A stretch of 64,000 bases of DNA from Solanum dulcamara (lineage: Eukaryota > Streptophyta > Magnoliopsida > Solanales > Solanaceae). Where the stretch lies: positions 43,269,097-43,333,096 of the forward strand of contig NC_077242.1 in the NCBI RefSeq assembly GCF_947179165.1, given 5' to 3'. Positions 3,588-64,000 of the stretch are shown here, one piece after another. Positions within the stretch are counted from its first letter, which is position 1. Each line of letters opens with the position of its first letter. The notes beneath the pieces are model-generated. The model saw only the letters and a list, made by a program, of their open reading frames with translations, was not told the DNA's origin and did no database searches. Position numbers and translations under genes: made by a program.

Positions 3588-3698
3588 TTGATATGTATCC
3601 TAATGACTTCAGTTCATTAACAAATTTCTAGCAGCAACGTGAGAAAACAAACCCTATGAGCTAAGGAGAAAATTTCGACGGCTTGGGAGAAATAAATA

Positions 3699-20600: not shown

Positions 20601-20689
20601 AGCCTCATAAGTCCCTTATTAATCAATACAATAGATTTAGAAGTTTAGATTACTGGTAGACATTGGGAACAAGTACGGATATTTATTCT

Positions 20690-22140
20690 TCATTTCTTCC
20701 TCATCTTTCTAGGTCATCTCTTTTCTATTCTTATTTTGCCACAGTACTTTGACGAAGGCCACGTCCTTGGTGCGCAATCTTCTGACTTGGCGATCAAGTA
20801 TGGCTATAGGGTGTTCCTTATAAGATAGTTCCACTTTCACATGGAGATCATCCATGGGTAATACTTTAGAAGGATTACCAATATATTTATGAAGTATCGA
20901 CATATGAAAGACTGGTTGTACTGCTTCAAAATCTGATGGTAGGTCCAATTCATAGGCAACTATGCCTATTCTATGGATGATCTAATACGGACCAATGTAT
21001 CTGGGGATAAGTTTCCCATTCTTGCCGAATCTCATTATCCCCTTCATGGGTGATACCTTTAAGAACACCCAACCATTCACCTAACACTCCAAAGGTCGAC
21101 GTCGATTATCTACATATAATTTCTGTCCACTCTAGGCTATTAATAACCTCCCCAGAATGAGCTTTACTTTATCCACAATTTTCTCAACCATGTTTGGGCC
21201 TATTAGTCATGTTTCACCAATATCAAACCAAACAATAGATGACCTATACTTCCTGTCATACAAAGCCTTATATGGTGCCATCTGAATACTAGAATAATAG
21301 TTATTATTATAGGTAAACTCGATAAGTAGTAAATGATCATCCCAACTTCCTCTAAAGTCAATGATACATGCCCACAACATATCCTCTAACTTCTAAATAG
21401 TACATTAAGCCTGCCTATCACTCTGAGGGTGAAATATTGTGTTAAGATTTACTTTTCCCCCCAATCCTTCTTGGAATGATCTCCAAAAGTTAGCGCTAAA
21501 CTGAGCTTCTCTGTCCGATATAATAGATGTGGGGACCCCATGATATCTTACCATTTCCTTATTATATAACCTGACATAGTCCTCAGCTGAATATATGGTC
21601 CTAACTGGAGGAAATGGGTTGTAATGAAGTTCATATTAATTTCTTCCATTCCATCTCCTGTAGTAGTCCACCAAGCTTTTGATGCTTCATCATGACCTAT
21701 TGGCAATACGGGCAGTGGGCTACAAACTTTGTTATATCCTTCTTTATGCCATCCCACCAACATAAACATCTGAGGTCATGATACATCTTAGTTGAGCCTG
21801 GATAAACAGAATATCGGGCATAGTATGCCTCTCTAATCACCTGTTGCTATAGCCCTGCAATCTTAGGTACACATGTTCTACCTCTATATCTTAGCACTCC
21901 ATCAGGTGCGATCTAGAATGAAGTCTTTTCCATTGGAAGAGCTGCATTCCTATTCTGTTCCAAAATAGTGTCTTCGTACTAGCATTGCTTTATCTCTTCT
22001 ATGATAGAGGAGTCAACAACTCCTTTAATAGAAACTCCACCTTACCCGAATCAGCCAAACGGACTCCAAGGTTAGCTAACTCACACGTATTGTGGACTAT
22101 CTCTTTATATTCTGGTTGTACATCTACCAAGCTACCCATT
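20690..22140 (-). pseudogene. Decayed integrase of E3, zinc finger to chromodomain-like tail
   Basis: Minus-strand order: the HHCC zinc finger keeps HCPYC (21703-21717); the core begins near 21640 but the first catalytic Asp is not visible; the second Asp is present in IISDREAQFSANFWRSFQ (Asp codon 21513-21515); the third position reads FHPQSDRQA followed by a stop (21405-21407) where Glu is expected. The C-terminal part at 20709-20948 reads FEAVQPVFHMSILHKYIGN, ELSYKEHPIAILDRQVRRLR, then VKVLWQNKN, the chromodomain-type tail of Tekay elements. Integrase would join cDNA to host DNA, and this tail may steer it to heterochromatin. It is non-functional here. Confidence 0.9.
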
Positions 22141-22560
22141 GATTTACGGCTGAGTGCATCGGCTACAACATTTTATTTCCCTGGGTGGCAAAGAATATCA
22201 ACATCATAATCCTTCAACAACTCTAGCCACCTTCATTGCCGTAAATTCAGCTCCTTCTACTTAAATATGTATTGGAGACTTTTATGATCGGTATAGATAT
22301 TAATGTGTATGCCATATATATAGTTCCTCCATATTTTCAAAGCATGAATTACTACTGCTAACTCCAAATGGTGAGTAGGATAATTCCTTTCGTGCTTTCT
22401 GAGTTGTCAGGAGGCATAGGCTATGAAGAATCACAATAAATAACATAGCTATCTGGTCCTTCCAGAAGAGTTAGAATTGGAGTCATAATCAACTTATCTT
22501 TCAGCAACCAAAAGCTTGGCTCACAAGCAACGGTCCCCTAGAACTTAGCCGCCTTGTGAG
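22141..22560 (-). pseudogene. Decayed RNase H domain of E3
   Basis: The plus text at 22130-22200 ('gatttacggctgagtgcatc') mirrors 12640-12700 of E2 and reads on minus as the 'NVVADALSRKSMG'-like domain end. The region to 22560 keeps the order of E2 but has lost about 60 bp near 22425 ('gctatgaagaatcacaata' joins two parts separated in E2). Confidence 0.78.
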
Positions 22561-23240
22561 TTATACTTGTTAAAGGTATGGAAATTGAAGTAAAGTTCTC
22601 TACAAACCTCGTGTAATATCCTGCTAACCCTAGAAAACTATGTACTAGGTCTCAGCCAAGCCCTTACAGCTTCAATCTTCTGTGTATCTACTCAAACGCC
22701 ATCCATTCTAATAACATTCCCCAAGAATGCTATCAAAGTCAAATAGAATTCATATTTAGAGAACTTACTATACAACTTCTGGTCCTAAAGCACCCCAAGT
22801 ACCATCCGCAAATGATCCGTAGTTCCTTTTCTAATCGTGAATATACTAGAATATCATCAATAAATATAATCACGAATAAGTCTAGAAATGGCTTGAACAC
22901 TCGGTTCATTTGATCCATAAACACCGCTGGAGAATTAGTCAGCCCAAAAGACATTTCTTTAAACTCATAGTGCCCGTATCAGGTTCTCCCCAAGGCGATG
23001 TGTTGGGCCTAATGAAACCCTTTTATAACAAGTCTCTCAGTTACTCCTTCAGCTTTGTGGGTGCTATTCTATAGGGAGGAATAGATATGGGTTGAGTATC
23101 TGGTAAGAAATCTACAGTGAACTCTATCTTCCCTTCAGAGAGAAGACCTAGGAGTTCATCTAGGAATACATCTGGATATTCATTGACTAGTGGCACTAAC
23201 TGAAGAGTCGATACCTCTACTTCCAGGTTATGCACCCAAA
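22561..23240 (-). pseudogene. Decayed, partly deleted reverse transcriptase of E3
   Basis: The frame at 22739-22954 reads [20 protein letters not shown] and [17 protein letters not shown], holding the F-x-D-D catalytic motif. The upstream frame 23041-23235 reads [15 protein letters not shown] and ends in the 'PPYRIAPTKLKE' block. Compared with E2 about 600 bp between these blocks (most of fingers and palm) has been lost at about 22980-22985, so the enzyme core is deleted as well as mutated. Confidence 0.88.
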
Positions 23241-24260
23241 CCAGATGATAAATATAACCCTTCTACCTACCCTTCTTTCCTTGAGGTATGGAATGAATTG
23301 ACATTCAAATTGTTCCTGGGTCACAAGCGAATATTTAACGCATAAACTACTTGTGGTACATGTTGTACTTTTCAAGTAAAGGTAAAGCTTAATTATTGTC
23401 CATTGTCGCTCTTTCATTTGAGCTTCTTCTAAGACAAATTGTGACTAGAAAATATTTTGGTTTCTTTAAAGAAATCCTAAGTTCTGCAGCTCGTATATGC
23501 TTTTTTTGTGGAATAGAGTTTCCTGAATAAGAATGATGCCTCTTACAGATGACATGGAGGGTATCTCTTAATATTTGATCCAATCATCTAAAATTTATCT
23601 TATCCATATCAACCTCATACTGACTATTATTACTAATTAAATAGTTAACTTTATTTCTCGAAATCAAACTTGAAACTTGGCAAAATCTCATTGTTACTGT
23701 TGACCCGAACCTTTAAGGCATATTATGAACTACATATCATTGTCTTTTTTATTCCAAGAACATTTTTCATAGTTTCCTCTGTATTTCTTACCATCTCAAA
23801 ACTTACACGCAAGAAATACCAACAATGCCTCACAGGACTAACACACATATATGATATCGTATTGTAGCCACACAGGGCTTCTTATATCAATCACAAGACG
23901 AAAATGACAAACTTGCCTCATATATCCAACACCAACTGTCCTTATAACTCTTTCTGATTCACTTTTTCTTTTAATTTTTAACTACCAATTTCAAACATAC
24001 TTGTAGCATTCATACTATGTTTGTTTTGTATATACAAATTCTCATTATGCTCCCTTGCTATCCAATTTTCCTTTTTAGGTGCAACTATTTTTCATCCTAG
24101 CCTACAAAATTCCCATGGGTGGGAATGCCTTGGTCATTATTACTCGTAACTACCTAGTTATTGGCTCCATTAATTTCCCTTACCACTATTAGGTAACAAT
24201 CTATGGTAAATGTACGTACATAGGAAATTTTGATGAAGTCTCTTATACCTGTAGGAAATT
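23241..24260 (-). mobile_element. NC sequence of E3
   Basis: Text such as 'tttcctctgtatttctta' (23780) and 'gtagccacacagggctt' (23862) matches E8 (31340-31480), E5 (55560-55680) and E6 (60370-60480). In E3 it sits just upstream of RT, where protease is expected. The short ORFs at 23217-23583 cross the junction and have no recognised domain. Confidence 0.65.
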
Positions 24261-24263
24261 TTC

Positions 24264-24641
24264 CTAGATCATCCGATTTGGTGATCTAGGAAATAAAGTG
24301 TGCTCCCCGTCATTATCTGTCCACCACCTACTCTTCTGCCCTTCATCATCTTCTTCTTTTGAATCCAGGGAACATAGATAACCAGGTAACTCCTGGTTTA
24401 CCAATGACCAGGACAGGGGGCTAGAATATTCTATAACACTTACCGGGGTAGCCGATCTGACATAGTGTTCAGCTATAAGAGCAAGTAGTATGGCTTCTGA
24501 GACCACTTCTCTAGATATCAAACACTCTGGGAGAATTATCATTGGGTCCTTTGAAGGATCGATGTCGATAGAATAACTGGGGATCCTCCTACTCGATCTT
24601 GGAGCTTGAGGTCCCGAATTTACCCTAGGGGCCTTCTCCAC
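24264..24641 (-). CDS. 125-codon acidic ORF in the gag position of E3 (unknown)
   Basis: This is the longest open frame of E3 and one of the longest in the window without simple-repeat content. The N-terminal part is basic and Pro/Arg/Ser-rich (APRSSRRIPSYS), then comes an Asp/Pro block (IDIDPSKDPMIILPECL), a hydrophobic stretch (SEAILLALIAEHYV), and an acidic C-terminal half (DSKEEDDEGQK, then WWTDNDGEH). I see no zinc knuckle, protease or RT motif. It lies about 100 bp downstream of a decayed gag ATG (near 24737). Asp/Glu-Pro-rich N-terminal ORFs are known from some plant gypsy elements, so it may be a divergent gag N-terminus. It is open throughout, unlike its neighbours, which could be chance at this length. 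Confidence 0.35.
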   Translation of the reverse strand: MEKAPRVNSGPQAPRSSRRIPSYSIDIDPSKDPMIILPECLISREVVSEAILLALIAEHYVRSATPVSVIEYSSPLSWSLVNQELPGYLCSLDSKEEDDEGQKSRWWTDNDGEHTLFPRSPNRMI

Positions 24642-24910
24642 ACCCTCCTACTGTCTGAAGCTGGCCTCTTCATCTTTCACATAAATCTGCACCTACCTAC
24701 ATGAAAAGAGGTCAGAAACAATCTTTCCTTAGAGGCATCACTGTACACATAATAGTCCAATAAAGATGAATTATCATGGCAATATCGCTCTATCGGATAA
24801 TTTAAAGTAAAAAGGAAAGGTAGCATCCTAAATTTCCTGTAGCTCCCTTTTTATAGATGTGGTGTACAACACACCGATAGATAAGACTCTACTAGACACG
24901 ATTTGTAGAT
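24642..24910 (-). other. E3 leader with decayed gag start; PBS deleted
   Basis: 'ctttccttagaggcatcactgt' on plus gives a minus-strand start MPLRK preceded by an acceptor-like 'tgtacag'. Then come the shared leader ('agctccctttttataga', 24841-24857) and 'cacgatttgtagata'. At 24910 the sequence jumps into LTR ('atccaagatggacactc'), missing the PBS and the outer LTR bases. Confidence 0.75.
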
Positions 24911-25150
24911 AATCCAAGATGGACACTCATGTATACTCCAATTAACTATAAGTAAACCAAGCATTATTTATAACTTAAGGAAATATAATGTTCTCTCAAA
25001 CTGTCATATGTTCACCTATTAAGACAACCCTTCTCCTGAGGAGTCACAACTTATCAATAGGTAACACAATACATAAGCCAACGAGACTGTCATAGCATGT
25101 GAGGTCATCCCATTATATATATATACGCAAGCCAACAAGGCTGCCATCAC
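24911..25150 (-). repeat. E3 5' LTR remnant
   Basis: It corresponds to the part of the E2 LTR at 16035-16265 ('gtatactccaattaactata', 'cgcaagccaacaaggctgcc'). It is cut on the right by the TG of the plus-strand LTR at 25151. Confidence 0.75.
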
Positions 25151-27866: not shown

Positions 27867-27949
27867 TCAAGATTTCTCTGTATTGGGTGTCCTCCATAGG
27901 CCTCTTATTAACCCATATGATAAGATTAAGAAGGTAGATTACCTGTAGG

Positions 27950-28720
27950 CATAGGAGATAGGTACGGATATTTTGTTTCCATTTCTTCTTCGGCTTCTCA
28001 GGTCGTTTCTTCTATATGCTCATTTTGTTACCATAGTTTGACGGAAGCCAAGTCCTTAGTTTGCAACCTTATAGTCTGCCGATCAAATGACGGTGATAGG
28101 TTGCTCCTTGTAGAATAATTTCCCTGTTATGTGGACCTCATCCACAAGGAACATTCTGGGAGGGTCACTTATATATTTACAGAGTATTAATCTGTGAAAA
28201 CTGAATGTAACATTTCAAATTGGATGGTAGGTTCAACTCGTAGGCAATTTTGCCTATTCTACGACTAATCTAATAAAGGGCCAAGTTTTTCTTTCCTGTC
28301 GAGTCCCATTACATCTTTCACTGATGATGCTTTCATGAGTACCCAATCCTCAACTTTGACCTCGAAAGTTCAACATTGATTATCTGAGTATGACTTTTGT
28401 CAATTCTGGACTATTAATAGGTTCTTCTAAATGAGCTTCACTCTATCAATAGTTTGTTGGCTCATGTCCGGATCCATTAGTGCACTTTCATCAACCTTAA
28501 ACCAACCAACGGGTGCTCTACCATACAAAGCTTTCTATGATGCCATTTAGATACTATTATATGCAACTTCAATAGGTGAAAGGTGATAACTTCAACTGCT
28601 TTTGAAGTTAATACTGTAGGCCCGCAACCTATGTTCTCGCGTTTACATAGTGTGCTCGGCCTATCTATTAGTCTGGGGGTGTAATATTGTATTATGTTCT
28701 TAATTCCCTTTAAAAGGTTT
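27950..28720 (-). pseudogene. Integrase C-terminal remnant of E8
   Basis: The minus strand shows decayed pieces in integrase order: near 28530-28500 RAFYGRAPVGWFKVDESALM; near 28370-28330 FEVKVEDWVLMKASSVKDVM, equivalent to the 'leFevgDxVxLK' block; near 28190-28080 LRKYISDPPRMFLVDEVHI and FYKEQPITVI, equivalent to ILHKYIGNPSKVLPMDD of E3. Only the C-terminal third is represented and stops are frequent. Confidence 0.75.
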
Positions 28721-31411
28721 TAACTGTCCTTCTACTCTACAACTTATAAACCAAATCCTTAGAGTTGTCTATCATACAATTTCTTTTATTCCAGCGTGTA
28801 ACTCTTTAGGCGTGTCCTAGTTCATTTTTTTCTCAAGTCTTGTTTCATGTTCTTTTACCACAGCTCGTATTGTAATATTTACCCAAACATGTGAGAGTGC
28901 TTACCACAGCCTGGAAGATGCCTTAGCATTTCTATACTGGTCTTTAGGTAAACCCATATCATTTTCTACTTCCTTCAACTGATGTCAGGGATTTACTATA
29001 GATTTTGTCCTTAGTACTGATTATACTTTAAGGGTTTTGCCTCAAACCATATCACACTTTTCTTTAATATATTCGAACTATGGTAGTCACCTTGCTATTA
29101 CTGACTTCTTATTATCTTTATCAAGTAATCACTTCATCTCACCCTTAGCATACCAATATTCGTAGGTTTCATAACTATTCTTGTACACTTCGCACAACGT
29201 GCATTCAATTCATATCACTGTCTGTCCTTCTCTTGACTTACTTTGCTTTAAGTAGGTTAGTGTACTATACAATCTATTTTGCTGCATGTACATCACAATA
29301 TCAGTAGTTAGTAACTCTATCACCAACATCTTACCTTTAGTTAACTATAGTATGGCTATCCCTTATAATATCTTCAAGTTCTCATTATAATTTTCTCGTT
29401 GTATTCCTCTCTTTTGTATGCACCCATTCTATGATGTCATACCATTTGAGGTCTTTACCAATAGTTCCTAGCACTGTCTTAGATATCATGGTTTTTATCT
29501 GTCCGTTGCTGGCTTTTGAGATCTTACCGACTCGTTCTAGTATGGGATCTCACTTGGAATTTAAGTATTAATGTTAATATGTTGTAATGTCAGTTAATTT
29601 CATCTTACGCTGGTATTTCTCTTATCTACTTCCCCCTTTAGGGTATATTTATGTCATTGTCTGCTTACCTTCAAATTTCCAAATGCATATGAGTCTGTTC
29701 TAATGTATTTGGTATACCTATGCTTTTGGTTACCAATGTACGACACCTTAACACAATCATAAGGTGCTGATCTAGTCTACTTGTTGGTACTCGGTTCACG
29801 TAGCAATTTATTCGAAGCCACCTTCTATTTATCCCAATCAGTAGTCAGACAGTGTGTTTAGTTGTTTCAACTTCTCCGTTCTAGAGCACTTATTTTCTGA
29901 TGATACATGTCTCAAGCTTTGTCATAACACTATTTTTACCCCATTGAATACTACTTGTTTCTTTAGTAAATTTGCAATGAAACAGTTGTTTTGCAACCAT
30001 ACTTTCCTTAACTGTTAAGGATCTTACTATTTTCCCATGGTGGAGTCACATATATTCCTTACTTCTTTATGCCTCAAGAGCTTTCATCCATGTTGTGCAC
30101 CTGATGTTATCTTCTAATCTTACTTAAAACCATATTAACTTTGTTCTAATAGTGGCCTTGTCTTATCACCTTTTCATCGCACTATACCTTTAGTTCATAG
30201 CTGTCTATTTCCTTTCTTGTCCAATACGCATACTTAATTAATCACATCTATCTTGAGTACTTCCTTTAGTCATCCTTTCATTTCTCCTGTCTATGTCCAT
30301 TTGTTTTCTATACACAAGGAATTCCATGTTATTCCTATATCCTTTGGGAAACACTAGTTTTACATAACCTTCCTTTCTCGTATCATCTGTTTATGTTAAT
30401 TTGTTTTTAGCAAACCAGTCATCGCTGGCATACATCCTGTCCTGTTGCTCATCTCTACTTTTGCTACTACTTGACCTTTTATTTTGAACTTCCCCTATAA
30501 GTTTGTGTAAGTCTTTCTTATGCGTTCTCTATTTGCTCTTCTTTTTTCCATAAATACATCGTATCCTTCAGTTGCTTCCTTCCTGGACTTTACTTATCCT
30601 TATCACGATCCTCGTTATATTTACATGACACCCTATTCGCATCCATTCCTATAGTATAACACTTCTTAACCTTTTTCATAAGTCCTATTATGGGTTAATT
30701 ACACTAGGAGAGGTAAACGCTCCTAACCTTGGTCAACATCATCCCCTAGTATCACAAGACCTTCCAAAGTACTTTAGCATTTTATCACCAACACGAGACC
30801 TTGAATAGCCCAAAAAGTTATGTTTTCCATTCGCAAGTTATATCTCTAATTAGTGGGAAAAGAACTAGTAAAATGTTGCCATGGAGCATTCTCCAACCAC
30901 CGTCCAAATGGAACTAGAATCCAATAAGCCCTACAGTACTTTTTAGCACTTGACTCACATGATCTCCCTCTAGGTTCACTCTTAAGTCGTGAAAAAATTT
31001 TCAAGTTCACAACTAGGGGTTGAGGGCTTTGTACCTTTCCACGGAAGTGAAACGCAATTCCTGGACATCTTGTCCTTCAACATGAGCCTTTACCAAGGCA
31101 AAAATACGGTTGGAAAATATCTTGGTTCCTCAAATCAATTTTGAACTTTGCTGCTCATATAGGATTTGTCCGAAATAAAACTCCCCAAGTAGAAGTAGTG
31201 CCTCTCACTGAGAACCTGGAGGGTACATCTTTCATCTTTAGTTTAACATAATAAGTTCACCCTATTGGTATTAACTTCCAAGACGTATTACGAACTTCTA
31301 TCTCATTCTCTCCCTTTTTTGGTTATTGGGAAAATTTGGGCAGAGTTTCCTCTGTATTTCTGACTATCTCAAACCTGCACATAGAAAATGCCACACAATG
31401 CCTCATAAGGC

Positions 31412-31415
<4 letters not shown>

Positions 31416-31451
<36 letters not shown>
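31416..31451. repeat. (AT)18 microsatellite
   Basis: A pure AT dinucleotide run of 36 bp inside the NC sequence of E8. The ORF at 31336-31575 reads through it as an Ile/Tyr run and is not a gene. E5 (55634-55644) keeps only a short AT run at the same place. Confidence 0.95.
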
Positions 31452-31454
<3 letters not shown>

Positions 31455-31560
31455 TATCATATCACAGCCACACAGGGCTTTCAATATCATCTCATATCAT
31501 AGCCACACAGGTCTTTCAATATCATCTCATATCATAGCCACACTGGATTTCAATATTAAT
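31455..31560. repeat. 35-bp repeat, three units, in E8 NC
   Basis: 'agccacacag' starts at 31466, 31501 and 31536 (35-bp period) within 'tcatatcatagccacacagg' units ending 'tttcaatatcatc'. E5 has two units (55660-55715), E3 and E6 one each. Confidence 0.88.
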
Positions 31561-31956
31561 AATAGTATAAAATGATAGACTTAGCTAGTATGTCAAACTC
31601 GGACTGCATCTGTTAGATTCTCCATCTACTTTTCCTTTCAATTTTCAACTTTACATGTTAATCATATTTCAATACCTTACCTAGCACATATCTTTCGTGC
31701 CTTGGCTTACCTACGTGCTTTGTAACTTCTAATGTCGTCAGTCACTTTCTTCTATCGATGTTGTCCTTCTGCTGAAATAAGAGGTTAGTATAAGGAATTT
31801 CACTTCCTATTACTCGGCTTTATTGCACGATCTTTGATATGAAAGAAAAGTAACATCGTAAATGTCCTGTAGCCTCCTGCTTATAGATATGGCGCGCAAC
31901 ACACCGATAACCAAGACTCTACTAGACACGGTCTATAGATACTCTAAGGATGAATT

Positions 31957-31968
31957 GTTCTGATACCA
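31957..31968 (-). other. E8 primer binding site
   Basis: GTTCTGATACCA differs at one base from the exact complement GCTCTGATACCA and lies four bases from the LTR end at 31973. Confidence 0.9.
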
Positions 31969-32699
31969 CTTCTATCATGACCCAACACCGTAGGCCGTGA
32001 CCAGGTGCCCAAGCTGGACACCCACATATACAGCTGCAAACTGTAAGTAAGTTTGTCTCCCGAGGGACCATGACTTATCACTTAGGAAGCATAACACCTG
32101 AGCTGATAAGGCTATCATAGCATGTGGGGTCATCCTATTATATACATATATGCAATCTGACAAAGCTGCAATGGCAAAGGGAACGTCCAAAAACATAAAT
32201 CATATGGGCATAATGGAACACACATACATACACAACCTACACACTTGTCTATAGACCTCTAAGAGTGTTAACGACTATATATGGTGGGAAAGGACCCCCG
32301 TCATACATATGAATAAACAAATATATACATAGAAGGTTTGGTAGCAAAACTCGGCTCCAAATTATTGGAGCTTCTCCCAACTTGCTGAGTGGAATCCTAA
32401 GCTGGCAGACTCCCAAAACCTGTGTGTGTACCTACGGACATGAAATGCAGCCCCCCAGAAAGAGGGGTTCAGTACGACATATGTATTGAGTATGTAAAGT
32501 ATAAACATCATAAAAGGGCATAACTAATATAGGAATGCAGGAGACAAGCATAACATTCACAAAACTACAGTACCTGCATCTTATAAATTGAAGTTGTGTA
32601 TACCCCAATCAACCTTTTACCCAGCCCGCTAGGGGACTCGGTGTTAAAAATAAATCATCTAACATAATAGGCATATATATGCCATTAGCACTATGGAAC

Positions 32700-51189: not shown

Positions 51190-54100
51190 TGTCACGTCCC
51201 AACTCCGTAGGCTACAATGGGTGCCCGAACTAGACACTCGTGTATACCCTTGCTAACCATAAGTAAACCGGTCTCCTATTTGAGTCATAGTGTGCCAACA
51301 TGCAAGATAATATATAAGCCGATGAGGCTATCGTAGAATATCGGCACAACTTTACATACATACATATACACAACCCACATACATGTCCACAGACTTCTAA
51401 GAGTAAGAACAGTAACATAAGGCGGGATAGGGAAGAACAAATAAATATATACATCGAGGGTTAATACAAAATATAGGTTCCGGCAGTATGGAGCGCTTCT
51501 GAACTGCTGAGTAGAACTCCTATGCTAATGGATCCCCAACATGTGTATTTGTACTTGCGGACATGAACGCATCTCTCCATCCTCGGATCAAAGGGGGGAT
51601 AGTACGACATATGTATTGAGTATATAAAGTATAGACATCATAAGGAAATTATAGTTCGCGTAAGGATGCAGAGGTAAGTATGACATCTAATCATTTACTG
51701 TACCTATAGCTTATAACATAAGGTCGTACATACTATCATCACAAACTGTACCTGTCCCATTTGGGGATGTGGTGTAATGACTACATCACTCTATTATACC
51801 ATATAGTAATGCTGAGGAACATTCGGTCCGATCCACATATCATATAGTAATATCGAGGAACGTTCAGTCCGATCCATATATCATATAGTAATGTCGAGGA
51901 ATGTTCGGTCCAATTAATATATTATATAGTAATGCCGAGGAACGTTCGACCTGATCTGTATATTATATAGTAATACCGAGGAATATTCGGCCCGATCTGT
52001 ATATTATATAGTAATGCCAAGGAACGTTCAGCCCAATCCGTATATTATATATCGTACTTGGCTCTTTATGGGACTCGGTGTCATTATATAATTATATACC
52101 TTACCCGGCCCTTTATGAGACTTGGTGTCATAATCATCATATACCATACCCGGCGCTTTATGGGACATGGTGAAAGATATATTACAGTATACATGAGTAA
52201 GGTAGTGATTAACCATATACAATCTAAATAATTATCAGAGACTCGACAATGTAAGAAGATTAATCTATCGTCTGAGGACCAAAATAGTAGTGTAACCATC
52301 TTGAGTGTCTTCTAAATGACATTAAGGCCTATACCACTTAGGATCTCGCAGACCCTAGACATGTACTAAAGTAATACTAACAGTTCATAGAATTAGGGAT
52401 ACCTGTCGTCATATAGTCCTTAGGACTAAGAGCTTATGTATCAGTACTTCTCAACCTATGGAGTTCAAGGAAAGTAATTCAACTTACTATAAGAGTTTGA
52501 CATCCAGAAGTGAATAAGAGATACGGGTTACATTTAGGACTTAAAAGTGGAGTTACCCAGAGCTCGTATCGCATTTTACTTACAATTAGGACATGTCAAA
52601 GAAAGAGAAAGAATAAGTTTTACCTAGTCTCTACTTTTTCTCAAGGAGTCATCATTTACATATATCGTACCCGGCCCGTCATGGGCTTGGTATCAGAACC
52701 TTATTATTGCATTACCTTACAATCATAGAACCACACTTATGTCAAAGACATATCAAGAGTAAAGAAGGGTAGCTCTGCGTACTTATGCCAAAACATGCCA
52801 AGAGAAAGGAGATAACTTCACATACTTACTACTCTCCATCATATAGAAGCCTTGAGAGACAATAACTCAACTAGTATAGGAATTCTACCATCAAGAAGTG
52901 AATAAGACTTATGAGTCATACTTGGGGTTATATGAATGGAATTATCCCCATATTTTGTATATCAATCACTTAAGGCTAAGATATGTCAAAACAAAGAAAG
53001 GGTAAGCTTCATATACCTCTTACGAATTACTCTTACACATTCGCCTCGTCGTCTCTCTAACCTATTTAAGATAAAAGTAATACTAAGGTTAATGACCTTT
53101 CACTTTCTAATTTCCAAATATACATCCAAGTACTCATAGGAGTTATTTCCTTATCCATTAACCTCGACTAGTTTATTACTAGTTCCGAACCTACCAAAAA
53201 TCGGGTAGCATCTCTTTTATAACTTCAACATCCCCGAGATTTCAACTCGGCCACAATTCCAACAACCATACCAATAAAAAAAACCAGCAGCATATTTAAA
53301 AGTAAATCACTTCAACCTTACACAATACAAGCTCCAAACTACGATACAAAAATAGAGTTTTGAATCTTTGTTTCGCAAAATATTTAACCATAACAAATGG
53401 AGTGTCATGTGAATGAAACTAGAAGAACCCACACCTTTGTTAAAATACTCTGAATCCCTGCATCACGCAACCCAACCAGCTGTACCCGCAGCACCACAAT
53501 GATAACCTACTACTCGAGTTTGATTTAACGCTAGCGACATTAATTTAGTTTGTTTCTAACGTCAAGCATTCTTATGCAATTATTCCAATTCCAGCCTCAT
53601 TTAATACATGTAATATACCCCATAACAACATCATAAACTTCAATTTGAAAGGGAAAGCCTTACCTTGTCCGAAACTCGCCAAAACATTCCTCGGAAGTTC
53701 CTTTAGCGCGCCTAAAACTTCGTGGCTGTTTGATGATGTTTTGGGCTGATCCAAACCATAAATTTTCATTACTAACACCTTCATAACATCTTGGTAAACC
53801 GTAGAGAATTAATTCGCGGAACAAAATTGGAGACTTACCTTTTTTTCTCCTCCAAAACCGAAGCTCTCTGTTCTCTCTAGCTCAAGTTTCTCTTCTCTTT
53901 TCTTCTAGACTTTTCTTGAATTATTTTGGATAAAAAGAAACTTAAAAGATAAGGATGACTTAAAAGTCTTCAAACACATCTATATATAGGCCACCTTAAG
54001 GTGTGTCACATGTCAACCCCTTAGTGGTGACACATGTCAAGCCCTTATAGGGACAGCGCATCACCCCCTCCCCTTAGGGGCTGCCATGTCGCATGTGGGG

Positions 54101-54620
54101 ACCACCCCCTTGCTGCACCTGTTTCCATGTGGAACTCCCTCATGGGATGCCATGTGTTGTTTTCTTTTCCTCCTCGTGGGTTTGTAATCTCGTCTTGCTT
54201 TACGAACCTATGTAATCCTTACTACGTAACCTTTGTATGCACTCAAGTAGCTTAAGTATGTAAGATTTTAACATTGGTAGCTTACGTAAGTAAGTTGAGT
54301 CCTACGACTCATTACTTGGCCTCCAATTCCTTCCGAATTCTCATAACCACATTTCCAATCTTCTCTTCTATGGGGTGCCACACTCTCCCTTTCTTAGAGT
54401 TGTTTGATAGCGTCATAGATTATCTGGCTCACGTGACAACTTATAAGAAGCTTACTATCATTTCAAGAAACTTAAGAATCTTAAGAGGTTCAAGAAACTT
54501 AAGAAGCTTAAGAGGTTCAAGAAACTTAAGAAGCTTAAGAAGCTTGAGAACCTTCCAAGAAACTCAAAAACCTCTCAAGATACAAAAGTCTTTTAAGATT
54601 CAAAAGTACGGGGTGTAACA
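51190..54620 (-). repeat. E5 3' LTR (3431 bp)
   Basis: On plus TGTCACGTCCC to GGGGTGTAACA. It holds a 41-bp minisatellite (51801-52046), 'ccctttatgggac' repeats (52060-52175), the 'cctcgtcgtctctctaacctattta' block (53043-53067), donor-like 'cttacctt' at 53659 and 53836, 'tgacacatgtca' boxes (54003-54040) and a run of 'aagaaacttaagaagcttaa' near its start (54475-54545), an unusual short repeat that inflates the ORF 54274-54618. Confidence 0.92.
51801..52046. repeat. 41-bp minisatellite, six units, in E5 LTR
   Basis: ATATAGTAAT starts at 51801, 51842, 51883, 51924, 51965 and 52006, an exact 41-bp period with very few changes between units, so expansion looks recent. Confidence 0.95.
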
Positions 54621-54822
54621 TTCTTCCCCCCTTTAGAATATTCGTCCAAGAATATGAACCAAGACCTTTCTCCGGATCTTAGACCGACTATACGGAGAGT
54701 TTCTCTATCCCATTGCCATAACATATACTCTCATGGAGCAATCAATATCAGAGTTCCAAAGGTTAGGATTACTTGTAGACGTAGGGAATAGGTATGGATA
54801 CTTGTGTTTCATTTACTCTTTC
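54621..54822 (-). pseudogene. E5 polypurine tract and integrase-end remnant
   Basis: 'ttcttcccccctttag' (54621-54636) is the polypurine tract complement, followed by a decayed palindrome. 54765-54822 ('acgtagggaataggtatgg' and 'catttactctttcac') matches 27945-28005 in E8 and 20660-20712 in E3, the 3' end of pol. The match stops where the 5S-like segment starts. Confidence 0.7.
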
Positions 54823-54925
54823 ACTTCCCAGAGGGTCCCCCATCCTCGTACTACTCTCAGCCAAGCACGCTTAACTTCAAAGTTCTGATGGGATCCGATG
54901 TGTTAGTGCTGATATGATCGCATTC
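54823..54925 (-). pseudogene. 5S rRNA-derived segment (103 of about 119 nt) inside E5
   Basis: Read on minus, this is recognisably plant 5S rRNA from its 5' end (54925, GAATGCGATCATATC, cf. GGRTGCGATCATACC) through 'ccatcagaact' to the region of box C, ending at 'tgggaagt' (54823). The box A region is 54859-54876 ('agccaagcacgcttaact' on plus) and the box C region 54824-54844. By eye about 14 of 103 bases differ from the plant 5S I remember, many as C-to-T or G-to-A. The last about 16 nt are missing. It is in the same sense as the E5 RNA. It is surely not a working 5S gene: no 3' end, mutated core, and no 5S spacer or tandem copies beside it. Capture by template switching onto 5S RNA is a reasonable inference. 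Confidence 0.88.
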
Positions 54926-56114
54926 ATCCCTTATAAGATCTCGTTTGAAGTTTAAGCATTTCCATTTACATATGATAGAGTCAATTGGTTTTCTCTTATG
55001 ATTATATTTCTATTGTCCGCTTCCCCCTTTTAGGGTATACCCATGTCATCTTCTTGTTTATTTTCAACTATTCATACGCATATGATTCTATTCCAACACA
55101 TTTCATATACTACACCTTCAGTTTGTAGCTATCTATTCCTTTTTTGTCTGATACTCGTACTTAATTGATCATGTTTATCTTGAGTGCTCCTTGTAGTAGT
55201 CATTCTATTCTTGAGTCATAAACAACTTATCTTGTCCTCTAATAATAGTTGAGGGTTTTGTACTTTCCAACAAGAATGAAACTGCATCATCGGGCATTTT
55301 GCCTCTCAACGTGAGGTTTTCCTATGGCGAAATACAGCTGAAGATACCTTAGTCTGAACTTTGCTGCTCAGATAGGCTTTTGTTTCTCTGAAATAAAATT
55401 TTCCAAGTAAAAAGGGTGCCCCTTATCGACAACCTGGAGGGTACCTTTTACATCTTTAGTTCAATATAATAGGGGTACTCGGTATCAATTTCCAAGACAT
55501 ATTAAGAATCTATGTTTCATTCCCCCCCCCCTCTTTTTTTTTGTTTTGGAAAATTTCAACAGAGTTTTCTCTATACTCCTTACTATCCCCAAAACTTGAA
55601 CGCAGGAAATACCAACAATACCTCATAGGGCCAACATATATATATTCATATCTTATCACAGCCACACGGGGCTTTCAATATCATCTCATATCGCAGCCAC
55701 ACAAGGCTTTCAATATCAACAATAGTATGAAAATGATGGACTTACCTCAGGTGTCCAACTCAACCTTCATTTGTTACACTTTCCAGTCTACCTTCATTTC
55801 AGTTTTCGACTTTACGTTTTAATCATGTGTCAATACCTTACCTAACAGATACCCTTCCTTCCCTTGCTTACTTGCATGCTTTGTAACTTCCAATATCATC
55901 AATTACTTTCTTTGGTTGATGTCGTCCTTTGGCTAAAGTCCAAGGTTAGTATAAGGAGTTTCCCTATGACTCGGATCTATGGCACGATCTTATACAAGAA
56001 AGAAAGGTAACATCCTAAATATCCTATAGCCTCCTATTTATAGATGTGGTACATCACACATTGATAAATTAGACTCTATGAGAGATGGTTTGTAGACATT
56101 CTGAGGACCAAACC
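54926..56114 (-). mobile_element. NC internal sequence and leader of E5
   Basis: 54935-55100 matches E8 29545-29720 ('cttccccctttta', 'gggtata' and following text) and 55230-55980 matches E8 31000-31830, so about 1.3 kb of the E8 version is absent in between. A C12/T run (55522-55542) and two 35-bp 'agccacacag' units (55660-55715) lie within. ORF 55541-55822 is a shadow. The common leader is near 56010-56110. Confidence 0.65.
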
Positions 56115-56126
56115 GCTCTGATACCA
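56115..56126 (-). other. E5 primer binding site
   Basis: GCTCTGATACCA, the exact complement of TGGTATCAGAGC, three bases from the LTR end at 56130. Confidence 0.95.
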
Positions 56127-56129
56127 TTT

Positions 56130-56351
56130 TGTCACGATCTAACTTCGTAGGCTGCGAAGGGTGCCTGAATTGGACACTGACGTATACCCTTGCTAACCAT
56201 AAGTAAACCGGTCTCCTATTTGAGTCATAGTGTGCCAACAAGCAAGATAATATATAAGCCGATGAGGCTTTCATAGCATATCAACATAACTATACATAGA
56301 TACATATATACAACCCACATACGTATCCACGGACCTCTAATAGTAAGAACA
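56130..56351 (-). repeat. E5 5' LTR remnant, split by E6
   Basis: TGTCACGATCTAACTTCG onward matches 51190-51412 of the 3' LTR almost base for base ('aaccggtctcctatttgagt' in both). It stops at 56351 where E6 starts; its remainder should lie beyond the window. Confidence 0.9.
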
Positions 56352-59300
56352 TGTAACGACCCAATCCCATAGGCTCGACTGGGGTCCGACCTGGACCCCC
56401 ATATACGTATGTATCTTCTATAATCAAGTTGAACCATATGTGATGTGATACTATAAAAAAAACCCAATGGGTCAAAACTTTTTCATATAGTTGTAGCCTC
56501 TTTCCCCTAAATCATAATATGAAAGGGCACGCAAGCCGACAAGGCTGCCATATCAAAATAACCTTTACAATATGACATACAGGCATAGCTGAAACAAACT
56601 TATAAACAACTCATATGGATATGTCTATAGACCTCTAAGAATAGTAACGATTACATAAGGTGGGACAGGGTCCCCGCCGTACCCCTGAGTAAACAAATAT
56701 ATACATGGGAGGACCAGTACCCAAAGGCTAGGTTCCGGAATAGTGGAGCACTTCCAACATAGCTAAGCGGAAATCTTAAGCTGGCGGATCTCCGAAATGA
56801 ACATTTGTACCTGTGGACATGAAATGCAGCCTACCAAAGAAAGGGGTTCAATACGATACATGTACTGAGTATATAAAGCATAACATAATATAAGTGAGAT
56901 TACAACGGAAGTAGGGGTGCAGGAAACAAGTATAACAATTAACAAAGCACTGCACCTGCATCTTATAAAATGAGAGCATGTATATCATCCTGCTATACCG
57001 TACCTAGCCCGTTGTGAGACTCGGTGTTATCATATAAACATGTATATTATTTCATCATGTCATCGTATACGGCATCATATCGTCGTATACAGTTTAATCT
57101 TATATGTCATCATAGTATATCCGCTCAACTATGGGGATTGGGTTCTCAAATGTATTCTTATATTTTCATATGCATGCCTACATAAACTATCCGGCCCATC
57201 ATGGGACTCGGTGTCAGCATTTTTTATACGGTCATTATATGCATACATGTGTCGTACCCGGTGCTCTATGAGGGTGTCGTTCCACAATCATACTATCATA
57301 ATAGTCATACTATTATATATCATACTTGACCATTTATGGGAATCGGTTGTACCTAGCCCTTTACGGGACTCGGTCATACCCGGCCATTTATGGGACTCGG
57401 TGAATAATCATATCATTATATATCGTACCTGGCCCTTTATGGGACTCGGTCATACCCGACCCTTTATGGGACTCAGTGGAAGATGTATTAACAGCATGCA
57501 CGAGTAGAGTAGCGAGTAAGCATATGCAATTAGCTCATCATATGAGACTCGGTATAAAAATCATCACGAACTATCATTTGAGGATCAAAATGATCATCAT
57601 ACCAAGTATCCTCTAAATGCCATTAGGGTCCATATAAAAGGAGTCTCAGGAATCATATACTTATATTAATACACTGCCAAACGGCTTATGAAATCAGAGA
57701 CACCTATCACTATAGAGTCCTTAGGCACAGGAGCTCATACGTTCAATTACAATTTGACATATACAAGGCTCGAGTGTGATAGCTCAATTACCTTAAGAGC
57801 CTTAGCATTTAGAAGTGCACATGAGTCACATATTATACTCGGAACTTACAACTAGAACTACCTCCACACTCATATCATATCTCATTTCATTTACATTTAA
57901 GACATTCCAAAGGAAAGGAGCAATATGCTCTACATATATTACCTTTTATCATATAGAAGCCTTAAAAAGGCAATAGCTCAGCTATTAAAGAAGTTTTACC
58001 ATCACGAAGTGGATAAGAATTATAAACTCTACTCGGAACTTTACGAATGGATTTATCCCCATGTTTCATATACAAACCATTCATAACTCATATCTAAGAC
58101 ATGCCAAAATAGAGAAGAATAGCTTTACATACTTATGCCAAAAACATGCCAAGAGAAAAAAGGTAGCTTCACATATTCATCACTTCCTAACGTATGGAAG
58201 GATTGAGAAGCCCTAGTTCAATTACTATAAGAGTGCTTTCATCAAAAAGTAAATAAGAACCAGAATTACACTTGGAATTTATGAGTAGATTTACCCTCAA
58301 CTTCATATCATTCCTTACTTAACTTGAAGACATGCCAAAAGAAAGGAAGAGATAAGCATTACATACCTCTTATTGATTGCTTTTAACCAGGTTGTCGCAT
58401 CGTTCTCTGAACTTATTTAATACGAAGGTAATACTAATATTAATAAACTTTAACTTTCCAACTTCTAAATCCATAACCAAGAACCCATAGGAATCACTTC
58501 CTTATTAGCCTTTCTCGACTAGTCTTGACTAGTCTATTAGCTAGTTTAAGAAGTTAACGGAATTCGGGCAGCGTCTTCTCTATAACTTTCCCTATTCGAA
58601 CTTAACATTTAACCCCCAAAACTTAGAAGAAAAATACCAACAACAATCAGCAGTATATATACAAGTAAACCACTTCAACATTACACAACACAAACTCCAA
58701 AAAACTCGCTTAAAACCACAATACCAAAATAGGGTTTCTAATCTCTATTTTGTAAAACCTTTCACCACACGAACCGGGGTGTCATGTTGATGAAACCAGA
58801 AGAATATACAGCTATTTTTATTCATGTTCCATACCTGCAACACTACAAAACAACGCCCAATACAACACCACAATAACAATGACACTAGCCAAACTTTAAC
58901 CCGCTAGAATCTCGTCAAAACAGCCCCTACATGACCTGCAATGTTCTTCAGACGTAACATGCATATTTTCATGTTTCCAACCCATAATTATACACCCATA
59001 ACATTCTTAAACATTTTCCAAAACGTGGGAGGAGAGAATCAAACCTTACTTTGCTGAAAATTTCCCTTAAAAGCTCCTCAATATGCTGAAAATTGATGGG
59101 TTGTTAGTCGCCCTATCTTGCTGTCCCAAAAATCCAATTTAAGCTATTAAACACCATTATGTAACCATAGGATACCTTAAATAATTAAATCACAGAATGA
59201 AATCGGATGGCTTACCTTGTTTTCCTCCAAGTCGTGGCTGCCCTCTTCCTCTCTCACATTTTTTCCTCTTTTTTTGGCTAGGGAAGCTGAAAAGTGATGT

Positions 59301-59880
59301 TGATCCAACAATATACATATATATATATATATATATATCCTTAAGAGGGGACACGTGGCATCCCTTAGGGGTGACACATGGCATCCCCCTAGGGTGCCAC
59401 CTTATCCATGCGCCCACTCACATGAATCCATGTGGCAGCATGGGTTCCACCCCAAGCAGGTGAGTCACCTACTTGGTCCAAGTAGGTGCATCACCTACTT
59501 AGTCAAAGTAGGTCCATCACCTACTTGCTTCCAACTAGGTGCTATGCCTCTTTTTGACTCTTTCGTGGGTTCATAATCTCATTTTACTTTAAGAACCTAT
59601 GTAATCCTTGATATATAAGCTCGACACGCCCTCAAGTCGCTTACTTATGTAATACGTACAAGTTGGTAGCTTACACAAGTAAGTTGAGTCCTACGACTCA
59701 TTACTTGGCCTTCAACTCCTTCTGGATTCTTATAACTCTATTTCTAACCTTCATACTTATGGTGCATCACATCCTCTCTTCCTTAGAGTTATTTGATAAC
59801 ATTATAGATAACCTTGGTCATGTGTAAACTTTTAAGAATTTAAGAAAGCTTTTCAAAGTACAAAAGTATGGGGCATAACA
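56352..59880 (-). repeat. E6 3' LTR (3529 bp)
   Basis: On plus TGTAACGACCCAATCCC to GGGGCATAACA. 'accgggactcggt'-type repeats (57180-57490), the 'gttgtcgcatcgttctctgaac' block (58391-58412), donor-like site (59212-59219), (AT)n run (59313-59338) acting as TATA region, G-box CACGTG 59352-59357, AAGTAGGTG palindromes (59455-59525). ORF 57040-57507 is built from the 30-60-bp repeats. Confidence 0.92.
57180..57490. repeat. 'CCCGGCCCTTTATGGGACTCGG' repeat cluster in E6 3' LTR
   Basis: About eight imperfect copies of a motif with core CCTTTATGGGACTCGGT, spaced by 'catatatcgtaccc'-like or 'catacccg'-like text. The core contains the inverted pair CCC(TTTAT)GGG. Clusters of the same core lie at 61720-62090 (E6 5' LTR), 52060-52175, 48480-48730 and 5335-5870. 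Confidence 0.85.
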
Positions 59881-59916
59881 TCCTTCCCCCCTTTAGAACA
59901 TTCATCCTCGAATGTT
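59881..59916 (-). other. E6 polypurine tract and palindrome
   Basis: TCCTTCCCCCCTTTAG (59881-59896) is the intact polypurine tract complement, followed by AACATTC (59897-59903), ATCCTC, GAATGTT (59910-59916). Confidence 0.93.
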
Positions 59917-60004
59917 AACTAGTCTCATAAGGTCTTGTGAGGACTTTAGGAATTCTTTGTAATAGTTTTCGTCCATAGTCCTTTTATTCATCAACTCAAC
60001 TAAT

Positions 60005-60240
60005 CTAGGAGTTTAGACTTCCTATAGACATAGGGAACCTATGTTCCCAATCCCTTCCCGAATGATATCCAGCGGTTAGGTGTAAATTGAACTTCCCTTC
60101 TAAGATAATAGATATGGGAACTCCATGAAATCTTATTGTTTTTATGCTATAACATCTCGCATAACCCTCAGCTGAATATGCCTTTCTAACTGGAAGGGAA
60201 TGGGTTGATTCTGTCAGCCCATCTATCATAACCCATATGA
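60005..60240 (-). pseudogene. Integrase core fragment of E6
   Basis: The 74-codon frame at 60005-60229 reads MIDGLTESTHSLPVRKAYSA, then FHGVPISIIL. This is the start of the catalytic core of gypsy integrase, with the first catalytic Asp at residue 3 in the 'xDxLTKSxH' block. The segment after ISII is frameshifted, so the second Asp is lost, and the fragment ends with sequence near the 3' end of pol. It is flanked by deletions on both sides. No activity is possible. Confidence 0.82.
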
Positions 60241-60882
60241 ATTCATACTTCCTTAGAATGCGAGGTCATCCATACTCATAGTTTAGTCAAATCTCATTCT
60301 TATTATGGACAAGGCATACTACAACTCTATATCTCATTCTTCTTTTATTTCTAGGAAAATTTGGGCAGAGTTTCCTCTATATTTCTTACTATCTCAAACC
60401 TGCACGCAGAAAATGCTAGCAATGCCTCATAGGTATAACACATATATTCATATCATATCGCATCATATCCACACAGGGCGACCAATATCAGCAGTATAAA
60501 AATGGACTTACCTTGTATGTCCACTCGAACTGCACCTGTTGCACTTTCCTATTTACTTTCCCTTTCACCTTTCAACTTTACATGTCAATCCTATTTCCAC
60601 ACCTTACCTGACATATCTCCTACGTGCCTCTACTTACCTACGTGCTCTATAACTTCCAATATCGCCAGTTACTTTCTTCTATTGATGTTGTCCTTCCACT
60701 GAAATCACAGGTTATTATAAGGAATTTTATTCCCTATGACTCGACTCTATCGCACAATCTCAAATATGAAAGAAAGTAACATACTAAATGTCCTGTAGCC
60801 TCCTGTCTATAGATGTAGTGCACAACACACCAATAAACAAGATTCTACAAGACACGGTCTGTAGACACTCCGAGGACAAACT
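60241..60882 (-). mobile_element. NC internal sequence and leader of E6
   Basis: 60355-60480 matches E8 31325-31480 ('tttgggcagagtttcctct' in both), and 60520-60880 matches E8 31610-31950. One unit of the 'tccacacaggg' repeat remains. The common leader 'ctgtagcctcctgtctataga' precedes the PBS. Confidence 0.7.
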
Positions 60883-60894
60883 GCTATGATACTG
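60883..60894 (-). other. E6 primer binding site, decayed
   Basis: GCTATGATACTG, three changes from GCTCTGATACCA, four bases from the LTR end at 60899. The position is certain although the bases have drifted. Confidence 0.8.
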
Positions 60895-60898
60895 CTTC

Positions 60899-63800
60899 TG
60901 TCATGACCCAACCCTGTGGCCTCGACTAAGGTTCGACCTGGACCTCTATATATGTATCTATCAGCTATAATCAAGTTGAACCGTGTGTGATGTGATACTA
61001 TACACAAAAATCCCAATGGGTCAAAACTTTTTCATGTACCTGTATCCTATTTCCCCTATATCATAAGATGAAAGGACAGGCAAGCCGACAAGGCTGCAAT
61101 AACAAAATAACCTTTACAACACGACATAAATGCATAGCTGAAACAAACTTATAAATAACTCATATACATATGTTTACAGACCTCTAAGAATAGTAATGGT
61201 AACATTAGGCGGGATATGGCTCCCGCCGTACCCCTGAGTAAACAAATATATACATGGGAGGAAAATTACCCAAAGGCTAGGCACCGAAACAGTGGAGCAC
61301 TTCCAACATATATGAGCAAAACTCCTAAGCAAGCGGATCTTCGATAGGACCATCTCTACCTACGGGCATGAAATGCAGCCCCCCAAAGAAAGAGGGTCAG
61401 TATGATACATGTACTGAGTATATAAAGCATAACATAGTATAAGTGAGATTACAGCAAAAGTAACGGTACAGGAATCAAGTAAAACATTTAACAATGCACT
61501 GCACCTGCATCTTAAAAATGAAGGCATGTATATCATCCTCCCATACAGTACCCAACCCACTGTGGGACTCGGTGTTATCATATCATCACGTATATTATTT
61601 CATCATGTCATCGTATACAGGATCATATCATTGTATATGGCATAATCTTATATGTCATCATAGTATATCCAGTCCACTATAGGGCTCTGGGTCACAAATG
61701 TATTCCTATATTTTCATATGCATGCCTACATAAAGTATCTGACCCATCATGCAACTCAGTGTCAGAAAGTTTTATAAGGTCATCATATGTATACATGTGT
61801 CGTACCCGACCTTCTATGAGGGACTCGGTCAACAATCATACTATCATAATAGTCATACCATCATATGTCATACCTGGCCCTTTATGGTACTCGGCCGCAC
61901 CCGACCCTTTATGGGACTCGGTGAATGCTCATATCATCATATAACGTACCCATCACTTTATAGGACTCGGTCATACCCATTGCTTTATGGGACTCAGTGA
62001 ATAATCATGTCATCATATATCGTAATCGACCCTTTATGGGACTCAGTCATACCCAGCCCTTCATGGGACTCGGTGGAAGATGTATTAATAGAATACACAA
62101 GTAGAGTAGTGAGTAACCATATGCAATTAGCTCATCATCTGAGAGTCGGTATAATAATCATCATGAACTATCATTTAAGGATCAAAATGATCATCATCCC
62201 AAGTATCCTCTAAATGCCATTAGGGGCCATATCAAATGGAGTCTCATGAATCATAGACTTGTATTAATACACTACCAAAAAGCTTATGAAATTAGAGACA
62301 CCTGTCACTATAGAGTCCTTAGTCACGGGAGCTTATACATTCAATTACTATTTCACATATACAAGGCTCGAGGGTGATAGCTCAACTACCTTAAGATCCT
62401 TAGCATTTAGAAGTGCACACGAGTCACGTGTTATACTCGGAACTTACAACTAAAGCTTCACATACCTTGTCTGACTTACTCCTTATCCTGTTCGCATCGT
62501 CGTCCTTTGAACCTATCCAATAAGAGAGTAATATGCATATCAACTCTTCTTAACTTTCAAGCATATTAGGTTACACCTTAGTATTAATAGAATCTATTTC
62601 CTTAGTCGTTTCCTCGACTAGTTCTTTAGTTTGTTAAGGCGTTAATGAAAATTGGGCAGCACCTCCCCTATAATGTGTCCTATATGAATTTCCAATCAGG
62701 TCCCTAAGACCTACATCCAACCTACAACAATAACCTGCAGCAATTCACACCAACAATATACAACATAAACTCCTAACGACTTATTCAAAAATACGATATT
62801 ACAATAGGGTGTCTAGCCTTTATTTTGTAATGCCTTTAATTATACGCAATGGGGGGTCATATGGCTTCTACCAGCACCACCCTAACCCACATTAGAACAT
62901 GTTTAGGCCCTGCAACAACAATCCACACCCCTGCAGCAGCACCTCACAAAAGCAATACTTTATTTGGACGACAATTCAACTATAGCGACTCCAACTTAGT
63001 TTGTCTTCAACGCCCAGCATTTCTATACTATTTTCACGTTTCCAGCAACACACACAAGGTGTATAATACACTCCATAATAATAACATAAAGTCCAAATTG
63101 AAAGGATAAACATTACCTTACCCGAAATTGGCCAAAATTGTCAAATCGCAACTCGGAACATCTTCAACGCGTTGAACTTGAACGGGCTATTTGTGCAACT
63201 TCCTCGCTTCCCCAAATTGGATTTTCTCATTATTAAACATCGTTATATAACCACGTGATACCATAACTAATTAATTCACGGAATGAAACGCAGAGGCTTA
63301 CCTCCAATAGGCCTAACCTGTAGCCTCTCTCTCTTGTCTCCAACGTTTTTTTCTTCTTGTTTCTTCCAAGTTTCCGATTATAAATTTGAAGTTTTGGTTC
63401 CGTAGACATCGTAAAATACATATATACATATCAACATACTTAAGGAACACCGTATATAATTAATTCACGAAGGAAACTTGGAAAACTTACCTTTAAGCTT
63501 CCAAAGCCATGGCTGCCTCTCTCTCACGTTTTCTCCCTATGCTTAGCTGATGTTTTTGGATAATTGAACAAATGAAGAGTCATATACACATATATATATG
63601 AGGTGACACGTGTCATACCCTAAGGGTGATATGTGTCAGGCCCTTATTGGGTCACCTCAACCATGCGACCAATAGGGTGCTGCCACATGGCAGTGGGGTC
63701 CATCTCCCCCAAGCAGGTGGGTCACTTGCCTGCTTGAGGTGCTGCCACATGTCACCCTGCTAGGCTTCCATGTGTCTAATTTTTTTCCTCCCTCGTGGGT

Positions 63801-64000
63801 TCGTAATATCATCTTATTTTAAGAGCCTATATAATCCATGCTACGCAAGCTTGGTACGTACTCCAATAGCTTAAGTATGTAAGACTTCCAAGTTGGTAGC
63901 TTACGTAGGTAAATCGAGTCCTACGACTCATTACTTGGCCTCCAATTCCTTCCAGATTCTTATGATTCCATTCCTAACCTTTTCTACTACAGGGTATCAC
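60899..64000 (-). repeat. E6 5' LTR, cut by window edge
   Basis: TGTCATGACCC onward follows the E6 3' LTR ('atcaagttgaaccgtgtgtg', 'aagccgacaaggctgc', hairpin 61378-61398, repeat cluster 61720-62090). About 0.5 kb present in the 3' LTR (57855-58350) is missing at 62455. Donor-like sites at 63112 and 63297, then a second leader copy at 63420-63530, G-box CACGTG 63607-63612. The LTR start lies beyond 64000. Confidence 0.82.
63233..63535. repeat. Duplicated leader block in E6 5' LTR
   Basis: 'aattaattcacgga' plus the donor-like 'cttacct' and a 'gcctctctctct' run occur at 63260-63335 and again at 63455-63525, about 195 bp apart. The second copy resembles 1-130 at the other end of the window. An unequal exchange between LTR subfamilies would explain the doubling. 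Confidence 0.6.

Follow-up and report, generated by a model that had tools for sequence, protein, structure and literature searches.

The stretch of Solanum dulcamara DNA analyzed here (64,000 nt, referred to as the window) raises the question of how a segment of 5S rRNA came to lie in the interior of an LTR element, and what, if anything, it does there. In the original prediction, the segment was read as plant 5S rRNA beginning exactly at the 5′ end of the RNA and running in the sense of the element, and both parts of that reading hold. The Rfam covariance model of 5S rRNA (RF00001) scores 64.2 bits (E 3.5e-11) on the minus strand at 54808-54925, against a gathering score of 38, and it is the only model to reach its gathering score in an Rfam scan of the whole window; a permissive scan of the window yields no second 5S. 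A single 5S match is therefore found, rather than a head-to-tail 5S array with spacer.

The 5S segment and the element around it

Base-by-base comparison places the true homology at nt 1-102 of the 5S, from 54925 down to 54824, which is narrower than the Rfam match; base 54823 is identical to 5S nt 103. The segment is 89% identical to the host 5S genes and takes in the A box, the IE and the C box region, of which the C box is mutated in the window copy. The 5S, primer binding site (PBS), polypurine tract (PPT), and LTRs all lie on the minus strand, so that the 5S is oriented in the element sense (Table 1). Elsewhere in the window, a weak 41-nt match to part of the 5S is seen in a pol-bearing remnant (22642-22682; 75.6%, E 0.005), which is probably due to chance.

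Table 1. Positions of the 5S-bearing element, its parts, and its 5S-lacking comparison relative in the window
Feature	Position	Strand	Basis
Captured 5S rRNA, host 5S nt 102 down to nt 1	54824-54925	minus	Rfam and base-by-base comparison
AGGGAT between gypsy flank and 5S nt 1	54926-54931	minus	alignment
Pol remnant, chromodomain/integrase C-terminal codons	54728-54823	minus	alignment to pol-bearing relative
Polypurine tract AAAGGGGGGAAGAA	54621-54634	minus	sequence
Primer binding site TGGTATCAGAGC	56115-56126	minus	sequence word
Short internal region, ~1.5 kb	54621-56129	minus	without Pfam domain
3′ LTR TGTTAC...GTGACA, 3,431 bp	51190-54620	minus	LTR alignment
Surviving end of 5′ LTR, 87% identical to 3′ LTR	56130-56351	minus	LTR alignment
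5S-lacking comparison relative	27902-31973	minus	alignment

The carrier is a non-autonomous element of the Ty3/gypsy type, as is evident from its LTRs, PBS, PPT, 5-bp target site duplications (TSDs), and the gypsy domain order of a coding relative. This pol-bearing relative (20560-24913) contains reverse transcriptase, RNaseH, an integrase zinc finger, and an SH3-like end in three broken frames, of which the 5S elements retain just the last pol codons. The PBS, which we take to be of the initiator tRNA-Met type, is exact in 7 of 21 loci including the window, and is mismatched or without a match in the others, while the PPT lies at a near-fixed distance of about 190 nt past the 5S in the 20 fetched copies and the window. 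LTR alignments extend up to ~3.2 kb in the family loci, and the LTRs of the 5S elements measure ~3.2-3.4 kb. TSDs were read by eye at eight printed loci, with 5/5 bases agreeing at L014, 4/5 at L019 and L028, and about 3/5 at L009; the remaining four were unusable.

The flank between the 5S and the PPT aligns with 20621-20695, the integrase/chromodomain end of the pol-bearing relative, and with 27902-27990 of the 5S-lacking relative, as was anticipated when this side was called a pol end; the motif at 20621-20695 is one that we take to be a chromodomain. Similarly, the predicted loss of about 1.5 kb relative to the 27.9-32 kb element is borne out, because 27991-29540 of that element is absent from the 5S elements. 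The assignment of the other flank to NC sequence is not supported, since the interior of the 5S element is without any Pfam match and this flank gave no match to the gag stretch that Pfam detects elsewhere in the window. A second, PPT-like polypurine run is present in the interior (55020-55035, minus strand) and is kept in 5S-lacking relatives. Within the 3′ LTR, 41-bp tandem repeats occupy 51795-52040, and at L009, L021, and L022 the LTRs match themselves at offsets of about 41 or 82 nt.

Related elements lie close by in the window. The remainder of the 5′ LTR is cut off at 56352 by a related element (56352-64000) that is nested in it and whose LTR ends there; its 3′ LTR spans 56352-59880, its PPT lies near 59881-59894, and an LTR end followed by PBS-like text is found at 60899. 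At the other side of the window, two LTRs that are 94.8% identical (3054-6519 and 7098-10583) stand ~578 bp apart, with PBS text after 6519 and a PPT at 7084, thereby delimiting a related element (3054-10583) that lacks 5S and whose interior is shorter still.

Copies, dispersal, and the host 5S genes

The search for further copies spanning both junctions, as proposed with the original prediction, was carried out with a 351-bp query, which returned 4,240 first-look candidates; the best 40 were scored and match essentially the whole query. Both 5S junctions are common to all 40 scored copies, the window included, and in each of them the 5S starts at nt 1 and ends at nt 102/103. Since the copies scored were the best matches to a 5S-containing query, 40 of 40 is an ascertained count; nevertheless, junctions that recur in 40 copies are neither chance nor an assembly quirk. 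The 5S element is thus a dispersed, multi-copy family and not one odd element; it is a real and amplified chimera of a gypsy element and host 5S rRNA. Among 20 fetched ten-kb loci, the 14 that were scanned with Rfam each hold a single 5S at the gathering threshold, always in an internal position, and none of the 14 has a 5S in its LTRs. At L015, a second, inverted 5S-like piece (9531-9624) is 79% identical to the window segment and stays below the Rfam threshold. For the 11 copies that could be dated, LTR-pair K2P distances of 0.072-0.117 correspond to insertion ages of ~2.8-4.5 My at 1.3e-8 substitutions per site and year, or 5.2-8.3 My at 7e-9.

The host 5S genes were located with a typed dicot 5S query of 119 nt. 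Of the 40 scored matches, 38 fall at ~64.118-64.133 Mb of C7, a contig other than that of the window, in an array with a spacing of mostly 341 bp, and the other two lie near 63.823 Mb of the same contig. A 5S array broken by LTR insertions, the explanation that would have undone the original prediction, is ruled out, since the same junctions recur at scattered sites and the true array lies on C7.

The host 5S gene differs from the typed dicot query at nt 24 and nt 93, two positions at which most copies of the element family agree with the host. Identity to host nt 1-102 averages 92.0% over the 40 element copies (84.2-96.1%), and C>T and G>A changes make up 246 of their 324 substitutions. Even the most frequent departure from the host 5S occurs in 10 of 21 copies, short of a majority. 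From the small number of shared differences and the host states at nt 24 and 93, it follows that the captured sequence was, as far as can be told, the 5S of the lineage itself.

Junctions and origin of the chimera

At its 3′ junction, the 5S meets the pol remnant at the W-E-A codons of the chromodomain. From 150 scored pol-bearing ends, six were retrieved, four of which (L034-L037) carry at their Thr-Trp-Glu-Ala codons the word CCTGGGAAG, an exact 9-mer of 5S nt 94-102; the captured 5S stops where this word stops. L038 shares 7 nt of the word with the 5S, whereas the 20.6 kb element of the window itself (L033) has no match to the 5S word at the junction, and CCTGGGAAG is likewise absent from the 5S-lacking element at 27.9-32 kb. 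As a control for chance, 13 of 20,000 shuffles of the 33-mer of L034 share at least 9 nt with 5S nt 86-119. The base after nt 102 varies (T in 26, C in 13, and A in one of the 40 copies), so that the 3′ breakpoint can be fixed only to within 1 nt. No direct parent of the chimera was found.

These observations are best explained by capture of the 5S from RNA through template switching of reverse transcriptase, to which we give a probability of about 0.68. The RNA of a non-autonomous Ty3/gypsy element, with its pol already shortened, would have been reverse-transcribed in a particle that presumably also held host 5S rRNA. On the assumption that copying proceeded from the 3′ side and that the copied parent possessed the 9-mer, the enzyme, while copying the chromodomain codons (CCTGGGAAG), may have switched to the identical word in the 5S (nt 94-102), copied the rRNA as far as its 5′ end (nt 1), and then returned to upstream element RNA, whereby ~1.5 kb of the element would have been replaced by ~102 nt of 5S. 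The resulting chimera, with LTRs, PBS, and PPT kept, could then have been amplified to a large family, presumably by mobilization in trans.

A switch onto 5S RNA and off its 5′ end is what the original prediction had proposed, and its two halves have fared differently. On the 3′ side, the exact 9-nt word in four of six pol-bearing relatives strengthens the proposal beyond what had been noticed before. The 5′ side is weaker: the start at nt 1 agrees with it, but AGGGAT precedes that base and a form with a longer spacer exists. In the short 5S elements, GATCCCATA is followed by AGGGAT and then by 5S nt 1, whereas in the 5S-lacking relatives GATCCCATA runs on uninterrupted into (C/T)T(G/A)(G/A)A... 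in all 12 copies fetched by a query drawn from their own lineage. The word TATAAGGGAT is present in the replaced region of relatives (e.g., L071 and the 27.9 kb element) and is a possible source of AGGGAT, although the predicted direct joint of TATAAGGGAT to 5S nt 1 occurs in 0 of 40 scored matches.

The longer form emerged from an empty-site query, for which 40 matches were scored and 16 were read, comprising three short 5S forms, one element without 5S, and 12 long-spacer loci. The spacer from GATCCCATA to the 5S measures 92-94 nt in nine of these loci and 144 nt in three (L075, L081, and L084), compared with 6 nt in the short form; the 144-nt version is a tandem duplication of part of the spacer. 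Two copies of AAGGGATGGATG frame the long spacer, both of them exact in three of the 12 loci and degenerate in the rest. At the seven long-form loci that were measured, the 5S begins no more than 2 nt from nt 1 and is 89.2-93.2% identical to the host gene, and the 3′ junction is common to all seven long-form loci that reach that far. The long-spacer loci imply that the 5′ side has been rearranged at least once, and one capture with later reshuffling is the simple reading of both forms. The AAGGGATGGATG repeat contains 5S nt 1-5, which favors the short form as the earlier one; a tree of 234 columns and 50 rows (40 short forms, nine of the 12 long forms without L075, L081, and L084, and one joined outgroup) interleaves short and long forms and therefore decides nothing on their order.

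An element situated beside or inside a 5S array might alternatively have recombined with it at the DNA level, by microhomology or end joining, and been amplified afterwards. The 9-nt word could equally guide such a recombination, and an origin through proximity to 5S arrays has been proposed for Cassandra (PMC10853983). The host spacer before 5S nt 1 reads ...GGAATGAT, so that its bases -3 to -1 are GAT, as in AGGGAT; this GAT could be host spacer or chance, and the donor may on that account have been DNA that extended slightly into the spacer ahead of the gene. Against a DNA donor, every one of the 40 scored copies has its 5S starting at RNA nt 1, and agreement with the host spacer extends over at most the 3 nt that precede it; because the host 5S unit is mostly 341 bp, a DNA-level end exactly at the transcript start would be a coincidence. 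Capture from DNA is hence regarded as unlikely, albeit the most serious rival. For the template switch speak the start at nt 1 in 40 of 40 copies, the 9-mer in four of six relatives, the shared sense, and the LTR/PBS/PPT layout; AGGGAT before nt 1, the long-spacer loci, the missing TATAAGGGAT joint, and the two of six pol relatives without the 9-mer speak against it.

That the 5S was brought in by another 5S-bearing mobile element, such as a Cassandra-type TRIM or a 5S-derived SINE, inserting into the gypsy element is most improbable: such elements exist in plants or animals (PMC10853983, PMC10886601), and the PBS word equals that reported for Cassandra (PMC7215508), but both 5S flanks align with 5S-lacking gypsy relatives, ~1.5 kb of the element is replaced and not interrupted, and at both positions that set the host 5S apart from the dicot query the founder agrees with the host. 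This route was rejected provisionally, on the gypsy flanks and the replacement.

Function of the internal 5S and comparison with known systems

Whatever its origin, the 5S segment is most likely a passenger at present. That it would act as a working Pol III promoter or as an RNA signal aiding spread is distinctly unlikely, although the 5S-bearing family is of considerable size (4,240 first-look candidates vs 1,580 for a 5S-lacking query, counts that are not strictly comparable), the control region of the founder is that of the host gene, and 19 of 40 copies retain both Cassandra-type boxes intact, as judged by the A and C box patterns printed in a Cassandra study (PMC7215508). Nucleotide diversity among the 40 copies is 0.128 in the 5S, compared with 0.091 (34 columns) and 0.079 in the flanks, and the same trend is seen in 21 copies; this comparison gauges decay after insertion and not selection during amplification, and the 5S rate is raised by its richness in CpG (6 sites). 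At sites outside CpG/CHG, the control region (nt 50-97) has changed at 0.042, compared with 0.0375 in nt 1-49, and the IE box shows one change at four such sites, which is too small to weigh. Moreover, the window copy fails the C box pattern, and TTTT occurs past the 5S in 21 of 40 copies, in 17 of these only at nt 261-262, a position before which 17 short sequences end.

Visible constraint on the 5S was consequently rejected, its diversity being no lower than that of the flanks and its control region changing as fast as nt 1-49. With the 5S as variable as its flanks and the C box of the window copy broken, a present function is unlikely. Transcription from the Pol III boxes may possibly have taken place at the birth of the element. 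A bolder proposal is that the lineage acquired the whole 5S control region in its interior, ~190 nt ahead of the PPT, and exploited it, through Pol III transcription or by binding 5S proteins that would aid packaging or nuclear export, in becoming a large non-autonomous family, which would make it a 5S-driven element outside the Cassandra/TRIMp3 plan; this appears clearly improbable.

If the template-switch reading is true, the family is a base-level fossil of the pickup of a host structural RNA by LTR elements, in which the donor, the likely switch word, and the RNA end are all visible, and whose product was amplified instead of lost. The family also carries a practical warning, as element-borne pseudogenes can be tallied as 5S loci in large numbers when plant genomes are searched for 5S.

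Among known element classes, the 5S element may be likened to what we would call LARD-like long non-autonomous Ty3/gypsy derivatives, with which it shares long LTRs, an interior without a detected coding domain, and the retention of PBS and PPT; it differs from them in the captured host structural RNA. 5S-bearing LTR elements are known, namely Cassandra and Ajax, which carry the 5S in short LTRs (PMC10853983 and PMC10886601, respectively). An internal 5S in a long-LTR gypsy derivative is not among the matches listed in the open-access literature, as covered by title and start of abstract and with subscription papers mostly outside, and a survey reports that 5S sequence was found in none of the other TRIM families studied (PMC4717578). 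Ajax and the TRIMp3 group resemble the present family in having 5S-derived sequence in a non-autonomous LTR element, whereas Ajax comes from nemerteans and has its 5S in the LTR of a TRIM (PMC10886601).

Cassandra, like the present family, is a plant non-autonomous LTR element with a host-like 5S (PMC7215508, PMC10853983) and with the PBS word TGGTATCAGAGC (PMC7215508); an 18-nt spacing of the A and C boxes is seen in 19 of 40 copies of the present family and not in the window copy. The differences are that the 5S is internal here and in the LTR in Cassandra, that the LTRs measure ~3.2-3.4 kb instead of a few hundred bp, which exceeds TRIM size, that the interior holds a gypsy pol remnant, and that the 5S, covering nt 1-102, is bounded on one side by the 5′ end of the RNA. 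The family adds, beside Cassandra, an example of an LTR element that has taken up 5S sequence, here at another location and in another type of element, and it is relevant to whether Cassandra-like captures are rare or recurrent. Finally, Veju and BARE-2 are described (PMC13317346) as template-switch chimeras of plant LTR elements; as in the present family, foreign sequence was acquired by abnormal template switching (here on the preferred reading) and then propagated, whereas the donor here is 5S rRNA and is recognizable to the base.
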